From Burkholderiales bacterium (GTDB lineage Bacteria; Pseudomonadota; Gammaproteobacteria; Burkholderiales; Burkholderiaceae_C), in the NCBI GenBank assembly GCA_016223165.1, contig JACRPO010000018.1, positions 186,001 to 250,000 of the forward strand: DNA of 64,000 nt, written 5' to 3'. The translations under genes were made by a program, and so were the position numbers. Position 1 is the stretch's first letter, and the number at the start of each line of letters is the position of its first letter. Below are positions 2,624 through 20,021 of this stretch, one piece after another. The notes under the pieces are model-generated. The model saw only the letters and a list, made by a program, of their open reading frames with translations. It searched no databases and was not told where the DNA came from.

Positions 2624-3295
2624 ATGATCGACGTCATCCTCTGCGACGACCACGCCCTCATCCGGCGCGGCATCCGCGACACGCTGCTCGATGCGAACGA
2701 CATCCGCGTCGTCGGCGAGGCTTCCGACTACGGCGAGCTGCGCGCACTGATGCGCAACCTGAGCGTCAGCCGCGCCGAGGCGGGGGCGCGGCCCGGCCCC
2801 TGCGACGTGCTGGTGCTCGACATCAACCTGCCCGGCCGCAGCGGCCTCGATGCGCTGGCGGCGCTGAAGGACGAGGGCTCGCCGGTGCGCGTGCTCGTCG
2901 TCAGCATGTACCCCGAGGACCAGTACGCGCTGCGCGCGCTGCGCGCCGGCGCCTTCGGCTACGTCAACAAGGGCGGCGACCCGCAGACCATCGTGCAGGC
3001 GGTGCGCGCCGTGGCGGCGGGCAAGAAGTACGTGACGCCCGAGATCGCGCAGATGCTGGTCGAGAACCTGAACGCGCCGGTGGCCGAGAACCGCCACCAG
3101 ACGCTCTCCAACCGCGAGATGGAGACGCTGATGCTCATCGCCAGCGGCAAGCGCCTCGCCGACATCGCCGAGAAGCTGGCGCTGAGCCCGAAGACGGTAT
3201 CGGTGTACCGCGCGCGCGTCCTCGAGAAGCTGCAGCTGTCCAACAACGCCGAGCTGACGGTCTACGCCATCCGCCACGGCCTGGTGGGGCAGTGA
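2624..3295 (+). CDS. LuxR/NarL-family response regulator
   Basis: A 223-residue two-domain regulator. The N-terminal receiver has Asp8/Asp9 and phosphoacceptor Asp66 (VLDINLPGRSG). The C-terminal GerE-type helix-turn-helix spans about 160-220 (LSNREMETL through SPKTVSVYRARVLEKL). Between the receiver's second helix and phosphoacceptor strand there is an extra stretch of about 12 residues (SVSRAEAGARPG). It probably receives phosphate from the NarX-type kinase encoded just upstream. No target genes can be named from the sequence, although the EgtB-like gene follows on the same strand. Confidence 0.92.
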   Translation: MIDVILCDDHALIRRGIRDTLLDANDIRVVGEASDYGELRALMRNLSVSRAEAGARPGPCDVLVLDINLPGRSGLDALAALKDEGSPVRVLVVSMYPEDQYALRALRAGAFGYVNKGGDPQTIVQAVRAVAAGKKYVTPEIAQMLVENLNAPVAENRHQTLSNREMETLMLIASGKRLADIAEKLALSPKTVSVYRARVLEKLQLSNNAELTVYAIRHGLVGQ

Positions 3296-3300
3296 GCCTG

Positions 3301-3358
3301 TCCGGTCGCCCGAAAGCGCGAACACCGCGGGGCGCGGCACGGGGGCTTCCGGCATGAG
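3301..3358 (+). repeat. Dispersed intergenic repeat, copy A
   Basis: This spacer shares a core (CGAACACCGC, then GCGCGGCACGG and a run of G) with spacers near 27.8 kb and 42.1 kb, with only small substitutions and a two-base indel relative to copy B. All three copies end just before a gene start on the plus strand. In this copy the final ATGAG opens a five-codon mini-ORF (Met-Arg-Ala-Pro-Ala, stop) whose TGA overlaps the ATG of the next gene. Confidence 0.75.
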
Positions 3359-3367
3359 AGCGCCCGC

Positions 3368-4660
3368 ATGATCGTGCGAGCCGCCGCGGGCGACGACGCC
3401 GCCACGCAGGCGCGGCGCGGCGGGCGCGAATGGCTCTCGCTGGCGCTGCTGGAGGCGCGCAACGAACTGCTCGCGCGCCTGGCGCTGCTCACGCACGAGC
3501 GCGCCGGCCCGTCCCATGCCGCGCCTGCCGAGGCACCGACGCGCGCGCCGGCGAGCGGCCGGGTGCGGCCGGCGCCGAGCGAGGCGCCGCGCCTGGCCGC
3601 ACGCGCCGGCTGGTTCCAGGAGTGGTGGCTGGCGCGCCACGTGCAGCGTGCACGCGGCGAGGCCGCCGACGCCACCTCGCCGCGGCTGCCGGGCATCGAG
3701 CCGCGTGCCGAGGGCTGGCTGCGCCGTGCCGAGGCCGAGGATGCCGATGCGATCCGCGCGTACCTCGGCCGCACGCTCGAGCAGACGCTGGATCTGCTCG
3801 GCCACGCCGAGGACGACGATGCCGGGCTGTACTTCTTCCGCCTCGCGCTGCAGCACGAGGACCGCCTGTCGGAGCGCCTGGGCCACCTGCTGATGCCGCT
3901 ACTGCCGCCGCCGCGTGCGATGCGCGAGCCGCTCGGCGTGCCGGCGCAGCGCTGGTGGCTGGGCAGCGCGGCCGCGCCGGAGGGTGACCCTGCCCGCGCC
4001 GGCGGCTTCGTGCCGCATGGCGAGCGCTGGGCGCACGAGGTGGCGGTGCCGGAATTCGAGATCGACGCGCAGTGCGTCAACTGGGCGCAGTACGCCGAGT
4101 TTGCCGAGGACGGCGGCTACGACCGGCGCGAATGCTGGAGCGAGGCCGGCTGGGCCTGGCTGCACGAGGACGGCCGCCGTGCCCCGCGCGACGTGGAGCA
4201 GCTCGCCGGCAGCGTGCTCGTCGCGCGCGCCGGGCAGCTGCAGCGCGCCCCGGCGCAGCAGGCGGCGATGCAGGTCACGCGCCACGAGGCCGAAGCCTGG
4301 TGCCGCTGGGCCGGCCGCCGCCTGCCCACCGAGCCCGAGTGGGAGCTCGCCGCCCATGCCGCGGCGCGGCGCGGCTTTGCCTGGGGCGACGTGCTCGAGT
4401 GGGTGGCGGGCAGCGCCCGCCTGTTCCCCGGCGCGGGGGCGCGCGTGCCGCCCGGCACGCTCGATGTCATCGCGCCCGTCATCGACGCGGTGGTGCGCGG
4501 CGGCGGTGCCACCGCGGCGAGCGGCACCGCAGCGGCCGGCGGCGTGCTGCGCGGCTGCACGAGCGCGACGCCGGCGCGCTGGCGGCACCCCAAGGCGCGC
4601 CGCTTCGCGCTGCCGCACGACGACCGGCAGCGCAGTGGCTTCCGCAGCTGCGCGCTGTGA
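3368..4660 (+). CDS. EgtB/SUMF1-family protein with altered metal-binding site
   Basis: A 430-residue protein with a DinB-like helical N-terminal half (about 20-185) and a formylglycine-generating-enzyme-like C-terminal half (about 195-430), the layout of EgtB sulfoxide synthases. EgtB-like sections include GWFQEWWLARH, the NWAQYAEFAEDGGYDRRECW block, WCRWAGRRLPTEPEWE and the C-terminal RSGFRSCAL. Known EgtB enzymes bind iron through one early His and an HxxxH pair. Here the early position reads ARAGWF in place of the usual GHxxWF, and the pair reads H163-EDR-L167, so two of three ligands look lost. It may be a non-catalytic or re-purposed paralog. The gene ends at an inverted-repeat element. 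Confidence 0.72.
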   Translation: MIVRAAAGDDAATQARRGGREWLSLALLEARNELLARLALLTHERAGPSHAAPAEAPTRAPASGRVRPAPSEAPRLAARAGWFQEWWLARHVQRARGEAADATSPRLPGIEPRAEGWLRRAEAEDADAIRAYLGRTLEQTLDLLGHAEDDDAGLYFFRLALQHEDRLSERLGHLLMPLLPPPRAMREPLGVPAQRWWLGSAAAPEGDPARAGGFVPHGERWAHEVAVPEFEIDAQCVNWAQYAEFAEDGGYDRRECWSEAGWAWLHEDGRRAPRDVEQLAGSVLVARAGQLQRAPAQQAAMQVTRHEAEAWCRWAGRRLPTEPEWELAAHAAARRGFAWGDVLEWVAGSARLFPGAGARVPPGTLDVIAPVIDAVVRGGGATAASGTAAAGGVLRGCTSATPARWRHPKARRFALPHDDRQRSGFRSCAL

Positions 4661-6593: not shown

Positions 6594-7403
6594 TCAGGCC
6601 GGCTCGAGCTCTGCCACCAGCGGCAGGTGGTCGGACATGCGGGCCCAGCTCATGCCGCGCGGCACCATGGTCGAGCGGCACTCGAGCCCGCGCAGGTAGA
6701 AGCGGTCGAGCGCGAACACCGGCGCCAGCGAGGGGAAGGTGGCGCGCGCGCGATGGCCGCCGCCCGGGTTGCAGGCGCGCAGCAGGCCGAGCTCGGCCAT
6801 CGGCCCGTCCAGGCGCTCGCCCCAGTCGTTGAAGTCGCCGGCGACGACGAGCATGGCGTGCGGCGGGACCTCGGCGGCGATGAACTGCGCCAGCCGCTGC
6901 ACCTGGCGCACGCGGCTGGCGTGCACGAGGCCGAAATGCGCGACCACGGCGTGCACGACGGCGCCGTTCCAGACCACCGGCACGTGCAGCAGGCCGCGCT
7001 GCTCGAAAGGATGGTCGCTGACGTCGTGGTGGCCGATGTCGCCGAGCGGCCAGCGCGACAGCAGCGCGTTGCCGTGTTCGCCGTAGCGCGTGATGGCATT
7101 GGTGCGGTAGGCGGCGTCGTAGCCCGGCGGGGCCAGGAACTCCGCCTGCCCCTGCTCGGGCCAGCCGAACCAGGTGCGGTCGAAGCGGCGTGCCTCGCGC
7201 GTGTGGAACAGGCGCACCTCCTGCAGGAAGACGAGATCGGCGTCGAAGGCCTCGATGGCGAGCCCCAGGTTGTGGATCTCCAGCCGCTTGCGTGGCCCCA
7301 TGCCGCGCACGCCCTTGTGGATGTTGTAGGTGGCCACGCGCAGCCCGCCGATGCCGGTGTAGGGCGGCATCAGGCTGCTTTGCATCGGGTTGGCGCGGAT
7401 CAT
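6594..7403 (-). CDS. Endonuclease/exonuclease/phosphatase family protein
   Basis: A 269-residue protein of the EEP fold (relatives include DNase I, exonuclease III and inositol phosphatases). Fold signatures are VATYNIHKGV near the N-terminus, a Glu in VFLQEVR, the central GDFNDWGERLDG, and the C-terminal SDHLPLVAELE with the catalytic His. There is no signal peptide. It lies immediately upstream of the ClsB-like gene; proteins of this type are often found beside clsB, which hints at a lipid or phosphate-ester role, but the substrate is unknown. The ATG at 7403 begins 34 bp after the nudB stop; another ATG lies six codons further in. Confidence 0.82.
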   Translation of the reverse strand: MIRANPMQSSLMPPYTGIGGLRVATYNIHKGVRGMGPRKRLEIHNLGLAIEAFDADLVFLQEVRLFHTREARRFDRTWFGWPEQGQAEFLAPPGYDAAYRTNAITRYGEHGNALLSRWPLGDIGHHDVSDHPFEQRGLLHVPVVWNGAVVHAVVAHFGLVHASRVRQVQRLAQFIAAEVPPHAMLVVAGDFNDWGERLDGPMAELGLLRACNPGGGHRARATFPSLAPVFALDRFYLRGLECRSTMVPRGMSWARMSDHLPLVAELEPA

Positions 7404-7437
7404 GCGGCGGGGCCCTTCGGGATCGATGAGATCGGCA

Positions 7438-7959
7438 TCACGGCGGACTGCACCGGCGCGGCAGCTGCAGGATGGCTTCGGCGTTGCTCGGCGAGAAGCA
7501 GGCATCGGCCGCCTCGCGCCACGGCAGCCAGCGCCAGGCCAGATGTTCGCGTGGATTGAGCCGCACCGGCGTGCCGGCCGGCACGGTGAGGCCGAAAACA
7601 TGCTCGGTGTTGTGCGTCACGCCGGGCGCATAGCGGTGCCGCCACACCGGGTAGATCTCGTAGAGGTTGGCGATGCCCCAGTCGGTGAGCTGGCCGCCGA
7701 CGGCCGCGATGTGAATGCCGGTCTCCTCGTGCACCTCGCGCGCGCAGGTGGCTTCGAGCGGCTCGCCGGGGTGGTCGAGCGAGCCGGTCACGCTCTGCCA
7801 GTAGCCGGGCTGGTCGGCGCGCTCGATGAGCAGCACGTCGAGCGCCGGGGTGTGGATCACCACCAGCACCGACTCGGGGATCTTGAAGGGGCGGGCGGGC
7901 GCGGGCACCGGCGTGGGCCTGGCGGGGCGCGGTGTCGGCGCCCCGCCGCGGGCGCTCAT
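7438..7959 (-). CDS. nudB: Dihydroneopterin triphosphate diphosphatase (Nudix)
   Basis: A 173-residue Nudix hydrolase. The Nudix box follows the GX5EX7REUXEEXGU pattern, from GSLDHPGE to REVHEETGI. The early FKIPESVLVVIHT segment and the late HLAWRWLPWREA segment fit NudB, which removes pyrophosphate from dihydroneopterin triphosphate in folate synthesis. A position directly downstream of aspS (10 bp gap) is the common proteobacterial arrangement for nudB. The first 25 residues are Pro/Ala/Arg-rich and may be a lineage extension, so the true start could lie a little inside. Confidence 0.85.
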   Translation of the reverse strand: MSARGGAPTPRPARPTPVPAPARPFKIPESVLVVIHTPALDVLLIERADQPGYWQSVTGSLDHPGEPLEATCAREVHEETGIHIAAVGGQLTDWGIANLYEIYPVWRHRYAPGVTHNTEHVFGLTVPAGTPVRLNPREHLAWRWLPWREAADACFSPSNAEAILQLPRRCSPP

Positions 7960-9952: not shown

Positions 9953-10663
9953 TCAGTTTCGGGGGCTCGCCGCGGCGGGCATTGCCGCGGGCGGGACGCC
10001 GTTGCCGGTGCTCTTGGCCGCCGGCCCGACCACGCCCATCGAGATGACGTACTTCAGCGCCTCGTCGACGCTCATCTGCAAGGGCACGACGTCGGCGCGC
10101 TGCATCATGAGGAAGAAGCCCGAGGTCGGGTTCGGCGTCGTCGGCACGTAGACGCTCACCCAGTCCATGCGCGGGTCCATGCCCATCACCGTGGTCGGGC
10201 TGGCGCCGAGGTGGCCGGCCACCTCGCCGGCCGGGCGGCCGGTGACGAAGGCGATGGTCCAGGCGCCCGGGCGCGGGTACTGCACCAGCACCGCCTCACG
10301 AAAGGCATTGCCGGTGCTGGAGAAGAGCGTGTCCGAGACCTGCTTGACCGAGTTGTAGATGCTCTTGACGATGGGGATCTGGCCGATCAGGCGGTCCCAC
10401 AGCGAGAGCCACCATTGGCCGACGAAGTTGGCCGTGAAGATGCCGGTGGCCAGCAAGGCGGCCGCGAGCACCAGCACCGACAGGCCCGGCACGTGGCGCA
10501 GAGACTCGAGGAAGGCATAGGCCGAGTGCGGCAGCACCGCCTGCGTGATCGACAGCACGGCCGAGAACAGGCTGTCGATGCCGCCCAGGACCCACGAGAG
10601 AACCCAGACCGTGATGGCCAAGGGCAGCCAGACCAGCAGGCCGGCGATGAGGTACTTCTTCAT
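9953..10663 (-). CDS. DUF502 family membrane protein
   Basis: A 236-residue protein with two strongly hydrophobic segments, about residues 3-25 and 62-86, followed by a soluble domain. The stretch GQIPIVKSIYNSVKQVSDTL (about 105-124) and the VYVPTTPNPTSGFF segment are hallmarks of DUF502. The function of the family is not established. In Burkholderiales it is regularly found between an FmdB zinc-ribbon gene and aspS, exactly as here, so the three are probably one operon. The ATG is 16 bp after the fmdB stop. The last 25 residues are low-complexity Ala/Pro. Confidence 0.9.
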   Translation of the reverse strand: MKKYLIAGLLVWLPLAITVWVLSWVLGGIDSLFSAVLSITQAVLPHSAYAFLESLRHVPGLSVLVLAAALLATGIFTANFVGQWWLSLWDRLIGQIPIVKSIYNSVKQVSDTLFSSTGNAFREAVLVQYPRPGAWTIAFVTGRPAGEVAGHLGASPTTVMGMDPRMDWVSVYVPTTPNPTSGFFLMMQRADVVPLQMSVDEALKYVISMGVVGPAAKSTGNGVPPAAMPAAASPRN

Positions 10664-10679
10664 CAAGTTCCGCCGGCGC

Positions 10680-11075
10680 TCACCCGCCCGAGGCGGACGG
10701 TGAGGCGGCGGGAGGAGAGGGCGCGGCGGGTGTCGCCGTGGCGGGCGCAGGGGATGCGGCAGGGCTCGCCTTCTCGGCGGGCTTGTCGGCAGCCTTGTCC
10801 GCAACCTTCTCGGCCGGCTTGTCCGCGCCGCCCTTGTCGCCGCCCGCGTCCTTGTCGGCCGCTCCGCCTTCGGCCTTGCCGGCGCCGTTGCTGCCGCCAC
10901 GGAAGTCGGTGACGTACCAGCCCGAGCCCTTGAGCTGGAAGCCGGCGGCGGTGACCTGCTTGGCGAAGGTGGCCGCGCCGCAGGCGGGGCACTCGGTCAG
11001 CAGGGGGTCGGAGACCTTCTGCAGTACGTCTTTCGCGTGCCCGCAGCTCGTGCAGCGATAGGCGTAGATTGGCAT
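10680..11075 (-). CDS. FmdB-family zinc-ribbon protein with lysine/alanine-rich tail
   Basis: A 131-residue protein. Residues 1-40 carry the FmdB regulatory zinc ribbon: MPIYAYRC, then CTSCGH and CPACG pairs that supply four Cys. The GFQLKGSGWYVTDF segment is the usual continuation. The last 70 residues are a low-complexity tail of Asp-Lys, Ala-Asp-Lys and Pro-Ala steps, probably disordered. FmdB-type proteins are small and often predicted to be regulatory, but their role is poorly defined. It is the first gene of the DUF502-aspS run and has a TATAAT hexamer 37 bp upstream of its start. Confidence 0.88.
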   Translation of the reverse strand: MPIYAYRCTSCGHAKDVLQKVSDPLLTECPACGAATFAKQVTAAGFQLKGSGWYVTDFRGGSNGAGKAEGGAADKDAGGDKGGADKPAEKVADKAADKPAEKASPAASPAPATATPAAPSPPAASPSASGG

Positions 11076-12899: not shown

Positions 12900-14465
12900 T
12901 CAGCCGAGCCGAGGCCACAGGTGCAGTGCCAGCAATGTCAATGCCACGCCGGCAAGGACGCCCAGTCCCGCCCACACCAGGCCCTGCAGCAGCCGATTGG
13001 TGCGCCGCTGCTCGCGCAGCAGCGCCCGCAGCATGGCCTCGTCGGTCTGGCTGCCGCGCGCCTGTAGTGCCTGGTGCACCAGCCTGGGCAGCCCGGGCAG
13101 CATCTGCGCGTAGCGCGGCGCCTCGTCGCGCAGCCGCTCGAGCAGGCCGCGCCAACCCACCTGCTCGTTCATCCAGCGCTCGAGGAAGGGCTTGGCGGTG
13201 GTCCACAGGTCGAGCTCGGGGTCGAGCTGGCGCCCGAGGCCCTCGATGTTGAGCAGCGTCTTCTGCAGCAGCACGAGCTGCGGCTGGATCTGGACGTTGA
13301 AGCGGCGCGAGGTCTGGAAGAGGCGCATCAGCACCTGCCCGAGCGAGATGTCCTTCAGCGGCCGCGCGAACTGCGGCTCGCAGACGGCGCGGATGGCGCC
13401 TTCGAGCTCGTCGACGCGCGTGCCGGCGGGCACCCAGCCGCTCTCGATGTGCAGCTCGGCCACGCGCTTGTAGTCGCGCCGGAAGAAGGCGATGAAGTTG
13501 TGCGCGAGGTAGTCCTTGTCGCTCTCGGTGAGCGTGCCCATGATGCCGAAGTCGAGCGCGATGTAGCGCCCGAACGAGGCCGGCGCGGTGCTGACGAAGA
13601 TGTTGCCCGGGTGCATGTCGGCGTGGAAGAAGCCGTCGCGGAACACCTGCGTGAAGAAGATCGTGACGCCGTCGCGGGCCAGCTTCTTGAAGTCGACGCC
13701 GGCCTCGCGCAGGCGCTCGACCTGGCCGATCGGCACGCCGCTCATGCGCTCCATGACGATGACGTTGGCGCGGCACAGGTCCCACACCATCTCGGGCACG
13801 AGCACGAGGCCGAGGCCTTCCATGTTGCGCCTGAGCTGCGTCGCGTTGGCGGCCTCGCGCACGAGGTCGAGCTCGTCGTGCAGGTAGGTGTCGAACTCGG
13901 CCACCACCTCGCGCGGGCGCAGGCGGCGGCCGTCGGCCGACAGGCGCTCGACCCAGGCGGCGAGCTGGTGCAGCAGCGCCAGGTCGTTCTCGATCACGGC
14001 GAGCATGCCGGGCCGCAGCACCTTCACCGCGACGGGACGGCCGCCGCGCAGCGTGGCGAAGTGCACCTGGGCGATGGAGGCGCTCGCCACCGCTTCGGCC
14101 TCGAAGCTCTCGAAGAGGCCCTCGAGCGTCTGCCCCCCGAAGGCCTTCTCGACGATGGCCCGCGCTGCCGCCGCCGGGAACGGCGGCACGCGGTCCTGCA
14201 GCTTGGCCAGCTCGTCGGCCACCTCGGGCGGCAGCAGGTCGCGGCGCGTCGAGAGCACCTGGCCGAACTTGACGAAGATGGGCCCGAGGCGCACGAGGCC
14301 CTCGCGCAGGCGCACGCCGCGCGGCGCGTCGAGCCGGCGGCCGAGCGTGACGATGCGCACGAGCGCGCGCACCCAGCGCTGCGGGAACGCCGACAAGGCC
14401 ACCTCGTCCAGGCCGAAGCGCAGGACGGTGACGACGATGAAGACGAGGCGCGCGAAGCGCTTCAT
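12900..14465 (-). CDS. ubiB: Ubiquinone biosynthesis protein kinase-like UbiB
   Basis: A 521-residue ABC1/ADCK-family protein. The family-specific KxGQ motif reads K66-FGQ69 followed by [10 protein letters not shown], and the nucleotide-binding Lys is Lys148 in VAVKVLRPG. The [10 protein letters not shown] and DFGIMG segments are the catalytic-loop and metal-binding equivalents. Two hydrophobic helices at the C-terminus (about 482-518) anchor it to the inner membrane. UbiB is needed for the hydroxylation stage of ubiquinone synthesis, with UbiJ as partner. Its start (MKRF) is the last of four tandem ATGAAGC repeats that link it to the ubiJ stop codon. Confidence 0.95.
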
Positions 14466-14498
14466 GGGCGCTTCATGGGCGCTTCATAGGCGCTTCAT
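14459..14498 (-). repeat. Four-unit 11-bp tandem repeat forming a stop-start ladder between ubiJ and ubiB
   Basis: On the minus strand ATGAAGC occurs four times at exact 11-bp spacing (ATG first bases at 14498, 14487, 14476 and 14465). The ubiJ TGA overlaps the first ATG. Reading from each ATG gives Met-Lys-Arg-Leu-stop, Met-Lys-Arg-Pro-stop and Met-Lys-Arg-Pro-stop; each TGA overlaps the next ATG as ATGA. The fourth ATG opens ubiB. The geometry suits repeated termination and reinitiation, though that is inference. Confidence 0.85.
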
Positions 14499-15112
14499 CG
14501 CCGGCCCGCGCCGAGCCGCGAGGCGAACTGCGCGAGCTTGTCCGCCAGGGGCGACGATGACGCGCCGGCGACCGCGCCCATCGTGTTCAGTGCGGCGCGC
14601 AGCCCGCGCGCCAGCGCCCGCCCGACCTGGTGCAGCTGATGCGCCGGCACCGGGCCGAAGAAGCGTTCGAGATCGGCGGCGACGTCCCAGCGCAGGTTCT
14701 GCAGCAGCCAGCCGATGTCGGCGGCGAAGAGCGCATCGCCCTCGACCTGCACGGTCGGCCGCTCGCCGGCCAGCGCGCGCGCGAACAGCGCGGCGGGGTT
14801 GCCCGCGTCGACGGTGATGCGCAGGTCGGCGGCCGCGCCGGCGGTGCCGGGAACAGCGGTCGCAGCGGACGCACCAGGCGCAGCGGGCAGGCCGCACCAC
14901 TCCATCAGCCCCGCCGGCGTGACGCGCCAGGCCAGCGCCGGAGGGGTCGGCAGCAAGGCCGGCCAGCCGGCGAGCGACATCGTCAGCGTGCGCCCGGCAT
15001 GCGGGAGCAGGCGCTGCACCGCTGCCGGCTCGGCGCGCAGCACGTGGTTCAGCACCAGGGTCAGGCGCTCCAGCACCGGCGGTGCGAGCAGGTTCGACAG
15101 GGCATCGAGCAT
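14495..15112 (-). CDS. ubiJ: Ubiquinone biosynthesis accessory factor UbiJ (SCP2 domain)
   Basis: A 205-residue protein. The beginning (MLDALSNLLAPPVLERLTLVLNHVLRAEP) and the SCP2-like lipid-binding core (about 45-125) match UbiJ; the C-terminal part carries the RWDVAADLERFFGPVPAHQL stretch typical of UbiJ. UbiJ binds ubiquinone intermediates in a soluble complex and works with UbiB. It overlaps the ladder leading to ubiB, so the pair is translationally linked. In many proteobacteria ubiE lies just upstream; here ubiE is about 7.7 kb away, beyond the nucleotide-sugar genes. Confidence 0.87.
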   Translation of the reverse strand: MLDALSNLLAPPVLERLTLVLNHVLRAEPAAVQRLLPHAGRTLTMSLAGWPALLPTPPALAWRVTPAGLMEWCGLPAAPGASAATAVPGTAGAAADLRITVDAGNPAALFARALAGERPTVQVEGDALFAADIGWLLQNLRWDVAADLERFFGPVPAHQLHQVGRALARGLRAALNTMGAVAGASSSPLADKLAQFASRLGAGRR

Positions 15113-15292
15113 GGCGGCGGGATTGTAGGCAGCCCCTCGCGCGTCGATCCCGAGTCGATCCGCAGCGTCTGCCGCACCGAGGCCCGGGAACAAATGCACG
15201 CTGGCATGGTGCCTGCTTGGAGAGCGTGCCGGGTTGCGCCGGTGAGCGCCAGCACCCTCGCATAGCATGCGCGCTGCCTCGAAATTTCACCC

Positions 15293-16345
15293 ATGACCGC
15301 CACCGTCCTGCTCACCGGCGCCACCGGCTATATCGCCTCGCACACCTGGCTTGCGCTGCTCGCCGCCGGGCACCGCGTCATCGGTGTCGATGACTTCTCC
15401 AACAGCTCGCCCGAGGTGCTGCGCCGGCTCACCGAGCTGGCCGGCGAAGAGCCCCGGTTCGAGCGCCTGGACGTGTGCGATGCGGCGGCGCTGGAGGCCC
15501 TCTTCGCGCGCGAGCGCATCGACGCCACGGTTCACTTCGCGGCCTTCAAGGCCGTGGGCGAGTCCACCGCGAAGCCGCTCGACTACTACGCCAACAACCT
15601 CGGCGGCCTCGTCAACGTCTGCCGCACGATGCAAAGGCACGGCGTGACGCGCTTCGTCTTCAGCTCCAGCGCCACCGTCTACGGTGATCCGCAAGAGCTG
15701 CCGATCGTCGAGAGCTCGCCGCTCTCGGCGACCAACCCCTACGGCCAGACGAAGCTGATGGGCGAGCAGATCCTTGCCGACCTCGCGCGCAGCGACGCCA
15801 TGACTCGACCCGGCGGGGCCTCCGGCCCCGCGTGGCAGAACGCCGTCCTGCGCTACTTCAACCCGGTGGGCGCGCACGAGAGCGGCCGCATCGGCGAAGA
15901 CCCGCGCGGCACGCCCAACAACCTCATGCCCTACGTGGCGCAGGTGGCCGTGGGCCGGCGGCCGCACCTGAGCGTGTTCGGCAACGACTACCCGACGCCG
16001 GACGGCACCGGCGTGCGCGACTACATCCACGTCGTCGACCTCGCCGAGGGCCATGTGGCGGCGCTCGAGCGGCTGCTCGCGCAGCCCGGCTCGTTCACCG
16101 TCAACCTCGGCACCGGCCGCGGGCACAGCGTGCTCGAGGTGGTGCGCGCCTACGAGGCGGCGAGCGGGCGGCCGGTGCCCTACCGCGTGGAGCCGCGCCG
16201 GCCCGGCGACGTCGCCGCCTGCTGGGCCGACCCCGGCCTCGCGCGCGAACTGCTCGGCTGGCAGGCCCGCCTCGACCTGCAACGCATGTGCGCCGACAGC
16301 TGGCGCTGGCAGCAACAGAACCCCAGGGGATTCGAAACCACATGA
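15293..16345 (+). CDS. galE: UDP-glucose 4-epimerase GalE
   Basis: A 350-residue short-chain dehydrogenase-like epimerase of normal length. The NAD-binding motif is TGATGYIASH near the N-terminus, followed by DDFSNSSPE; the catalytic pair is in NPYGQTKLMGE (YxxxK), with SSSATVYGDP holding the Ser/Thr partner. RYFNPVGAHESGRIGEDP and RDYIHVVDLAEGHVAAL are GalE signatures. It interconverts UDP-glucose and UDP-galactose. It starts a plus-strand run of nucleotide-sugar genes, and its stop overlaps the manC start by four bases (ATGA). Confidence 0.95.
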   Translation: MTATVLLTGATGYIASHTWLALLAAGHRVIGVDDFSNSSPEVLRRLTELAGEEPRFERLDVCDAAALEALFARERIDATVHFAAFKAVGESTAKPLDYYANNLGGLVNVCRTMQRHGVTRFVFSSSATVYGDPQELPIVESSPLSATNPYGQTKLMGEQILADLARSDAMTRPGGASGPAWQNAVLRYFNPVGAHESGRIGEDPRGTPNNLMPYVAQVAVGRRPHLSVFGNDYPTPDGTGVRDYIHVVDLAEGHVAALERLLAQPGSFTVNLGTGRGHSVLEVVRAYEAASGRPVPYRVEPRRPGDVAACWADPGLARELLGWQARLDLQRMCADSWRWQQQNPRGFETT

Positions 16346-18005: not shown

Positions 18006-19081
18006 CGATTCTCGTCACGGGGGGCGCCGGCTTCATCGGCAGCAACTTCGTGCTCGACTGGCTGGCGGCGGGTGGCGAGCCCACCGAGCCGATCGTCAAC
18101 CTCGATGCGCTCACCTACGCCGGCAACCTGCACAACCTCGCGTCGCTCGCCGGCGACGCGCGCCATGTCTTTGTGCGTGGCGACATCGGCGACCGGCTGC
18201 TCGTCGACCGGCTGCTCGCCGAGCACCGGCCGCGCGCCATCGTCAACTTCGCCGCCGAGAGCCACGTCGATCGCAGCATCCTCGGGCCCGGCGCCTTCAT
18301 CAAGACCAACGTCGAAGGCACGTTCACGCTGCTCGAGGCGACGCGCGTGCACCTGCAGTCGCTCGAGCTCGCCGAGCGCGAGGCCTTCCGCTTCCTGCAC
18401 GTCAGCACCGACGAGGTCTACGGCAGCCTGGCGCCGGGCGCACCCGCCTTCACCGAAGAGCATCCGTTCGAGCCCAACAGCCCCTACTCGGCGAGCAAGG
18501 CCGCCAGCGACCATCTCGTGCGGGCCTGGTTCCACACCTACGGCCTGCCGGTGCTCACCACCAATTGCAGCAACAACTACGGCCCTTACCACTTTCCGGA
18601 GAAGCTGATCCCGCTCGTGATCGTCAACGCGCTCGCGGGCAAGCCGCTGCCCGTGTATGGCGACGGCTGGCAGGTGCGCGACTGGCTCTACGTCGGCGAC
18701 CACTGCGCCGCCATCCGCGCCGTGCTGGCGCGCGGCCGCGTCGGCGAGACCTACAACATCGGCGGCTGGAACGAGAAGCCGAACATCGAGATCGTGCAGA
18801 CGGTCTGCGCGCTGCTCGACGAGATGCGCCCCGACCCCGCCGGGCCGCGCGCGCGCCTCATCACGCACGTGAAGGACCGCCCCGGGCACGACCGCCGCTA
18901 CGCCATCGACGCACGCAAGATCGAGCGCGAGCTCGGCTGGCGCCCGGCGGAGACCTTCGAGACCGGCATCCGCAAGACCGTGCGCTGGTACCTCGAGCAT
19001 GCCGACTGGGTGGCGCAGGTGCAGAGCGGCGCCTACCGCGACTGGGTGGCCACCCACTATGGCGGCCGCACTGCGCCGTGA
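18002..19081 (+). CDS. rmlB: dTDP-glucose 4,6-dehydratase RmlB
   Basis: A 359-residue dehydratase of normal length. The NAD motif [12 protein letters not shown] opens the protein; [12 protein letters not shown], the catalytic STDEVYGSL stretch (Thr-Asp-Glu triad), [12 protein letters not shown] (YxxxK) and [15 protein letters not shown] are all RmlB signatures. It converts dTDP-glucose to the 4-keto-6-deoxy sugar, the second step of dTDP-rhamnose synthesis. GTG is the start: AGAGGAG lies seven bases before it and the family alignment begins there. It is followed by rmlD, rmlA and rmlC. Confidence 0.97.
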
Positions 19082-19115
19082 GGGGCTGCCGTGACAAGGG
19101 TGGGCCGGGCCTGAG

Positions 19116-20021
19116 ATGAGCGTGCGCGTCCTGCTCCTGGGCAAGAACGGCCAGGTCGGCTGGGAGCTGCAGCGTGCCCTCGCGCCGCTCGGCGAAGTGA
19201 TCGCCTGCGACTTCGACTCCCCCGGCGACGAGCGCGCCGACTTCACGCAGCCCGAGACGCTGCGCGCGCTCGTGTGGCGCGCGCAGCCAGCGGTCATCGT
19301 CAATGCCGCCGCGCACACGGCGGTCGACAAGGCCGAGGCCGAGCCCGATCTCGCGCACCTGATCAATGCCACCGCACCGGCGGTGCTCGCCGACGAGGCC
19401 GAGGCCTGCGGCGCGCTGCTCGTGCACTACAGCACCGACTATGTCTTCGACGGCAGCGGCGTCGAGGCGCGCGAGGAAGTCGACGCCACCGGCCCGCTCA
19501 ATGTCTACGGCCGCAGCAAGCTCGAGGGCGAGCGCCTCATCCGCATGAGCGGCTGCCAGCACCTGATCCTGCGCACGAGCTGGGTCTACGCAGCGCGTGG
19601 AGGCAACTTCGCGCGCACGATGCTCAGGCTCGCGGCCGAGCGCGACCAGCTCAAGGTGGTGGACGACCAGATCGGCGCCCCCACCGGCGCCGACCTGCTC
19701 GCCGACGTGACCGCGCATATGCTGATGCGCGTGCGCACCGCGCCCGAGCTCGCCGGCACCTACCACTGCGTCGCCGCCGGCGAGGCGAGCTGGTTCGACT
19801 ATGCGCGCCACGTCATCGAGTGGGCGCGCGCCGCCGGCGTGCCGCTGAAGCTGCCGGCCGACGGCCTGCAGCCGGTGTCGAGCAGCGAGTTCCCGACACC
19901 GGCCGCGCGGCCGCTCAACTCGCGCCTGTCCACGCGCAAGCTGCGCGACACCTTCGGCCTCGTGCCGCCGCTGTGGACGGTGGGTGTCGAGCGCATGCTG
20001 GCCGAGATCCACGCGCGCTAG
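19116..20021 (+). CDS. rmlD: dTDP-4-dehydrorhamnose reductase RmlD
   Basis: A 301-residue reductase of normal length. It opens with the nucleotide-binding LLGKNGQVGWELQ, contains NAAAHTAVDKAE, STDYVFDG, and VYGRSKLEGE with the catalytic Tyr and Lys, all typical of RmlD. It performs the last step of dTDP-L-rhamnose synthesis. The gene sits 34 bp after rmlB. The order rmlB-rmlD-rmlA-rmlC is a common one in gammaproteobacteria and betaproteobacteria. Confidence 0.96.
   Translation: MSVRVLLLGKNGQVGWELQRALAPLGEVIACDFDSPGDERADFTQPETLRALVWRAQPAVIVNAAAHTAVDKAEAEPDLAHLINATAPAVLADEAEACGALLVHYSTDYVFDGSGVEAREEVDATGPLNVYGRSKLEGERLIRMSGCQHLILRTSWVYAARGGNFARTMLRLAAERDQLKVVDDQIGAPTGADLLADVTAHMLMRVRTAPELAGTYHCVAAGEASWFDYARHVIEWARAAGVPLKLPADGLQPVSSSEFPTPAARPLNSRLSTRKLRDTFGLVPPLWTVGVERMLAEIHAR

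Follow-up and report, generated by a model that had tools for sequence, protein, structure and literature searches.

How might a ribosome that has finished one gene reach the next when the two do not overlap? The question is raised by the sequence upstream of ubiB in a Burkholderiales genome (7.31 Mb in 21 contigs, G+C 72% in the sampled part). The locus lies in the window, the 64,000-nucleotide stretch of DNA that was analysed as a whole. Inspection of the minus strand from 14498 to 14459 reveals four ATGA motifs spaced 11 bp apart, which read ATGAAGCGCCT ATGAAGCGCCC ATGAAGCGCCC ATGAAGCGCTT, with the first bases of the ATGs at 14498, 14487, 14476 and 14465. The array is referred to here as a ladder, and the features of the locus are these:

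14459..14498, minus strand: ladder of four ATGA motifs at 11-bp spacing (sequence, TRF)
14484..14498, minus strand: mini-ORF 1, MKRL, its start overlapping the stop of the upstream gene
14473..14487, minus strand: mini-ORF 2, MKRP
14462..14476, minus strand: mini-ORF 3, MKRP, its stop overlapping the start of ubiB
12900..14465, minus strand: ubiB, 521 aa, its start being the fourth ladder ATG (NCBIfam, Pfam)
14495..15112, minus strand: ubiJ-like upstream gene, 205 aa by coding score, in an ORF open to 15268

Both the four ATGAs at 11-bp spacing and the MKRL, MKRP, MKRP chain from the ubiJ stop to the ubiB ATG had been described in an earlier, sequence-only reading. The spacing was confirmed by re-reading the minus strand and by TRF (period 11, 3.8 copies, 96% matches, score 77, the third highest among 139 rows for the window), and the chain was found again in the sequence. 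The TGA at 14497-14495 closes the ubiJ-like ORF and overlaps the first ATGA of the ladder, and each mini-ORF is 15 nt including its stop. The distance from the ubiJ stop to the ubiB start is 29 nt. The two genes have no direct overlap and are joined through the mini-ORFs alone, stop and start overlapping at four ATGA steps. UbiB is identified by NCBIfam NF003404 (828 bits), and Pfam agrees. The upstream product has no match in Pfam or NCBIfam at E 1e-5; its ORF is conserved in 109 of 110 ubiB loci, and from position and conservation we take the gene to be ubiJ.

The mini-ORFs chain because 11 leaves a remainder of 2 on division by 3. It had been claimed that 11 not being a multiple of three is what lets each added copy supply one more mini-ORF and leave UbiB unaltered. 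The chain and the unaltered UbiB both stand, but the condition is insufficient, as a unit of 10 or 13 bp breaks the chain. Phase-variable simple sequence repeats likewise place tandem units of changeable number at the start of a gene. The ladder differs from these in that the ubiB frame is independent of its copy number; a change in copies spares the downstream frame, so that there is no on-off switch.

The reading preferred here, with a probability of roughly 60%, is that the ladder acts as a translational relay, by which the ubiJ-like gene and ubiB stay coupled across the gap. The ancestral state would have been an ordinary 4-nt ATGA overlap of the two genes, expanded when an 11-bp unit was tandemly duplicated. 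Every further unit would have added a four-codon ORF, the TGA of which overlaps the next ATG. A ribosome finishing ubiJ would restart immediately, translate four codons, stop and restart again, passing through three mini-ORFs before it reached ubiB. With overlaps chained in this way, reinitiation would be local again at each step, and the genes would be coupled across the 29-nt gap.

A search of the whole genome with up to three mismatches finds the array at a single site, and the ladder is apparently a local tandem expansion. It looks young, because its units differ by only one or two bases. Shine-Dalgarno pairing before copies 3 and 4 is weak, at -0.6 kcal/mol, compared with a median of -2.4 kcal/mol for 600 random ATGs on the same strand. 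A search of Rfam with positions 14000-15600 returned no match to a known family of structured RNA leaders or other RNAs up to E 0.1. The fourth ATG is predicted to be unpaired (0.99), and direct initiation there is possible. This last prediction would suit a different explanation, that the array is a bystander minisatellite formed by slippage at the junction, with the upstream ATGs unused and ubiB started independently at the fourth. The young look of an array whose units are so alike is in keeping with such an origin, as is the commonness of tandem arrays in the sampled DNA of the genus. A bystander is nevertheless an unlikely explanation in our assessment, on account of the comparisons below.

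The ubiJ-ubiB junction in relatives

A total of 125 ubiJ-ubiB loci were given, 33 from the genus and 92 from outside it, and 112 junctions were kept. Those left out had a ubiJ stop misplaced by the alignment (L003, L038, L052), had no ubiJ match or start (L080, L500-L503, L505, L509), or were duplicate junctions (L033, L034, L095). The junction of Rubrivivax gelatinosus DSM 1709 (L034) is identical to the genus-set junction L018, which places R. gelatinosus in this genus. Of the 80 junctions from outside it, 48 are plain -4 overlaps, 47 of these being ATGA, and a further 12 are -1 overlaps. Inside the genus, the gap is 0 or larger in 25 of 32 junctions; L005, whose gap is 0, was retained, yet stands outside both the overlap and the relay counts.

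Among the remaining 111 junctions, no other pair of ATGAs with an 11-bp spacing was found; L027, a member of the genus, has one GTGA-ATGA step of that length. This bears on the earlier proposal that the ladder is a rheostat, in which the number of units would differ from cell to cell or strain to strain and so determine how much UbiB is made relative to UbiJ. Tandem units would be prone to copy-number change and each would be an extra step at which ribosomes may be lost. The 111 junctions, from relatives that have no copy of the array, supply no copy-number variant and neither support nor refute the proposal, to which a low probability is given.

What the relatives do have are mini-ORFs that bridge the gap. 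At the genus junctions with a gap above 0 and a real start overlapping the ubiJ stop, the chain ends exactly on the ubiB start in 11 of 11 cases. It does so through one mini-ORF of 4 to 34 codons in nine of these, through two in L012 and through three in the source genome. Where a control triplet is present at the ubiJ stop (12 CTG and one TTA), 4 of 13 bridge, with about one in three expected from frame alone; the difference between 11/11 and 4/13 has a Fisher value of 0.0006. In the other two frames at the genus junctions bridging was found in 1/24 and 4/24. Outside the genus, the sole separated junction with a real start (L039) has no bridge, and the controls bridge in 1 of 18. Exact bridging by mini-ORFs that are not repetitive, both here and in the source genome, is left unexplained by slippage and argues against a bystander array. 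Because the pattern at ubiJ-ubiB had been noticed before it was tested, the gene-pair test described below carries more weight.

The relay peptides differ among the ubiJ-ubiB junctions shown, and selection on position is therefore likelier than selection on the peptide. If so, it is for coupling, rather than for peptides, that the mini-ORFs would have been selected. In L002, L009, L029 and other genus junctions the bridging mini-ORFs are non-repetitive, and several end on TTG or GTG starts.

ATGA ladders in the genus and beyond

Ladders of four exact ATGAs with any filler were sought in 81 genus genomes, at four periods that keep the chain (8, 11, 14 and 17) and three that break it (10, 13 and 16). 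The chain-keeping periods yielded 26 ladders and the chain-breaking periods 2. There were 13 ladders at period 11 in 12 genomes, 11 at period 14 in 9 genomes, 2 at period 8 and none at period 17; the idea that longer units are favoured, which had predicted ladders at this last period, was dropped. Both chain-breaking ladders have period 10, with 0 at period 13 and 0 at period 16. Reversed-pattern controls had at most one match at each of periods 8, 10, 11, 14, 16 and 17, with 5 at period 12 and 8 at period 13.

This phase bias cannot be put down to exclusion from coding DNA, because a remainder of 1 closes all three frames of the strand just as a remainder of 2 does. The bias also exceeds that of general tandem arrays, which in 587 kb divide into 75 chain-keeping and 46 chain-breaking at 2 or more copies (Fisher 0.001 against the ladders), 37 and 24 at 2.5 or more (Fisher 0.002) and 20 and 11 at 3 or more (Fisher 0.012). 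At 3.5 or more copies the arrays divide 14:5 and the ladders 26:2, and the phase bias is not significant (p 0.10). If the ladder at ubiB were a bystander, the bias would be chance, or a mere filter against harmful out-of-frame starts; gene starts do also carry 11-bp arrays from which ATGA has partly been lost (L117, L492). Such a filter too, however, requires that ribosomes use the upstream ATGs. The upstream units of some arrays, as in L118 and L492, are now without ATGA.

An assembly or sequencing artefact at the ubiJ-ubiB junction is very improbable. The sequence-only reading had named lack of the array in relatives, together with evidence of an artefact, as what would count against it. The first holds, since the examined relatives are without the array, as an artefact would have it. 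The second does not: the array is 42 bp with units that differ, period-11 ladders made of other units are present in 11 further genus genomes, and there are more ladders elsewhere in the source genome.

For 17 of the 26 chain-keeping ladders, the gene that begins at the last ATG is recognised by Pfam. These genes encode UbiB, Maf, an alpha/beta hydrolase, IspF (YgbB), a 4HBT thioesterase, a 2-hydroxyacid dehydrogenase, a TetR regulator, a histidine kinase, Hsp33 (in the source genome), a short-chain dehydrogenase, an amidohydrolase, an MFS transporter, a VWA protein, an FtsX permease, PdxA, an outer membrane efflux protein and an ABC ATPase. The case of the histidine kinase (L113) is open to doubt, as its orthologue L114 points to a later start. 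Pfam was run on the last-ATG ORFs of 19 of the 26, on one period-10 ladder and on ubiB; the ORFs of L116, L119, L124, L129, L135 and L140 (4 to 67 codons), with no Pfam run, were scored as misses. Of the two period-10 ladders, one (L157) likewise has the start of a gene, of AraC type, at its end.

In 8 of the 26 ladders the stop of the upstream gene is also within unit 1, the pairs being ubiJ-ubiB, SPOUT methyltransferase-Maf, UPF0176-abhydrolase, DUF58-VWA, ABC ATPase-permease, NIF3-PdxA, MacB-type-OEP and two ABC ATPases. ORFs of at least 100 codons flank 10 of the 26 ladders on both sides, compared with 105 of 1725 single ATGAs of the source genome (p 2e-6).

Several other arrays were read individually. 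In the source genome, G000:C16:216388-216475 (L134) has seven ATGAs at 14-bp spacing, the last of which opens the Hsp33 gene, and G000:C5:53247-53282 (L130) has five at 8-bp spacing, with a last ATG that begins a 112-aa ORF without a Pfam match. Also in this genome, L492:4879-4966 holds about 7.8 copies of an 11-bp unit, part ATGA and part decayed. It is flanked by an Alpha-E gene and a transglutaminase-like gene, and the ORF of the latter begins at the last unit with ATGG. Two arrays with ATGA in every unit end without a clear gene: L140 (11 copies of 14 bp) and L430 (12 copies of 11 bp). Ladders of period 12 are found in 29 of the 81 genus genomes. Among the 29 that were read, nine lie in one common conserved coding segment, others cross long open frames, and four (L158, L161, L172 and L179) resemble, by eye, in-frame repeated starts (e.g. 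MTPPMTPPMTPP), possible N-terminal extensions.

In 359 genomes drawn from the phylum the raw counts are alike, with period 11 in 13 genomes and period 10 in 11. For the ladders read in this draw outside the source genome, the last ATG opens at least 100 codons in 2 of 14 at period 11 and in 1 of 12 at period 10. As far as tested, ladders would seem to be a trait of this lineage, because the four-unit arrays of the phylum draw are about equally frequent at the two periods and seldom end on long ORFs. Viral DNA has at least 120 stretches with four ATGAs at 11-bp spacing and at least 120 at 10-bp spacing; as both are lower bounds, the two give no comparison.

Relays between other gene pairs

A relay is defined here as a chain of mini-ORFs in which the start overlaps the stop of the upstream gene and the stop overlaps the start of the next gene. 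Gene pairs 1-120 nt apart, called with a home-made gene finder, were divided into those with a real start and those with CTGA at the upstream stop. In 845 kb of the source genome the finder called 658 genes, with 480 co-directional pairs and 69 overlaps of -4. Relays are present in 23 of 84 real-start pairs, ubiJ-ubiB among them, and in 14 of 123 CTGA pairs (p 0.005). Under the same rule, fresh DNA gave 18/40 against 7/51 in the source genome, 13/26 against 8/32 in G006 and 1/17 against 5/32 in G018. Pooled, these come to 32/83 against 20/115 (one-sided p 0.0008), with 8/83 and 4/83 in the wrong frames.

With a retrained gene model and 1.245 Mb of the source genome pooled, relays were found in 40 of 125 real-start pairs and 21 of 174 CTGA pairs (one-sided p 2.5e-5). 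The wrong frames of the real-start class gave 10/125 and 9/125. In the CTGA class there is no clear excess of the tested frame (21/174) over the wrong frames (12/174 and 21/174). The retrained model gave 13/26 against 8/34 in G006. No relay excess was found in G018, of the same genus (2/15 against 5/33, a small sample), or in G043 and G277, of other families (0/10 against 2/30 and 1/9 against 8/43, also small samples). The counts are little changed by other start weights or gap sizes. Judging from open frames, some pairs in the real-start class are probably true -4 overlaps whose start was misplaced, and these would lower its relay share. Genes at the end of a relay have a median Shine-Dalgarno pairing of -4.0 kcal/mol, against -3.0 kcal/mol for unbridged real-start pairs, so pairing is not missing, a point against the relay. 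In the window, four further candidate relays lie between predicted genes:

3292..3371, plus strand: candidate relay of two mini-ORFs in a chain, of 21 and 5 codons; the predicted gene before it ends at 3295 and the one after it starts at 3368
7400..7441, minus strand: candidate relay, 13-codon mini-ORF
10663..10683, minus strand: candidate relay, 6-codon mini-ORF
19078..19119, plus strand: candidate relay, 13-codon mini-ORF

A second training of the gene model, on longest ORFs, was rejected for this GC-rich DNA; in the source genome it called 728 genes, of which 7 pairs overlapped by -4, where the retrained model had called 969 genes and 104 such overlaps. With it there was no relay excess in the source genome (0/49 against 2/42), and the other counts were 1/14 against 3/8 in G018, 11/22 against 5/21 in G006, 1/10 against 2/32 in G043, 0/10 against 3/10 in G277 and 1/3 against 0/4 in G369.

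The earlier suggestion that ribosomes hop along the ladder thus has comparative support in the phase bias, the 11/11 bridging and the relay excess, while the translation of the mini-ORFs is itself something that we infer. The ladder would then be the multi-step, repeat-born form of a wider relay architecture in the lineage, one made of relay mini-ORFs of any sequence and of 3 to about 40 codons.

Known systems and wider meaning

Coupling by termination and reinitiation at 4-nt ATGA overlaps is described in the accessible parts of Huber et al. 2019 (PMC6728339) and 2023 (PMC10666635). According to the accessible text of the latter, little coupling is left when the spacing is 20 to 38 nt; for two E. 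coli pairs, the final 15 nt of the first gene are enough to produce it (PMC10666635). The ladder is like these pairs in that the ATGA is common to stop and start, and in that coupling would be local. It differs from them in that the genes are 29 nt apart and the overlap occurs fourfold, through three four-codon ORFs. The accessible parts of this work (PMC6728339, PMC10666635) contain no chain of the ladder kind.

The nearest precedent would appear to be the MIRUs, which, in the text available, are repetitive and apparently mobile and carry a short ORF linked to a gene through a -4 overlap (PMC12548453). A repeat at the start of a gene and a short ORF with a -4 overlap are features that the ladder shares. 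Ladders differ from MIRUs, as far as that text describes them, in having units of 8, 11 or 14 bp that are different from ladder to ladder, and the relay mini-ORFs at ubiJ-ubiB in other members of the genus have no tandem repeats. Nor is there a dispersed family of homologous repeats, as the array is single in its genome at up to 3 mismatches and the units of other ladders differ. Very short ORFs that boost the translation of the following gene in cis are reported for mg1/mg2 of axe-txe (PMC8708949) and for mgtQ (PMC8092293). These, in the parts of the papers available, use a Shine-Dalgarno sequence of their own or RNA structure and, unlike the ladder, are not entered from an overlapping upstream stop. 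Among titles and abstract openings, with subscription papers mostly outside the scope, no description of tandem ATGA ladders or relay mini-ORFs was found. The ladder and the relay are filed here as a fresh variant of termination-reinitiation coupling.

It is a tentative proposal, with slightly less than even odds, that the Rubrivivax-like lineage routinely moves ribosomes from one gene to the next, across intergenic gaps, by means of sequence-free mini-ORFs selected solely for the position of their start and stop, the ladder being a newborn case. Were this true, about one third of the close gene pairs with a stop-start overlap upstream would be wired by relays in the source genome, and tandem duplication at ATGA overlaps would be one route by which relays are born. 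Whether ribosomes reach the next gene after termination by direct overlaps only or by scanning is disputed, as the available text of two papers indicates (PMC10666635, PMC12548453). A relay would be a third route, in which a gap is crossed by successive overlaps without scanning. Some gaps that are now classed as uncoupled would then be coupled, part of the short intergenic ORFs would be there to link genes rather than to make peptides, and a tandem duplication at an ATGA junction would belong to a kind of mutation whose tolerance can be predicted. The ladder is a ready object for testing this, since its steps can be removed one by one.
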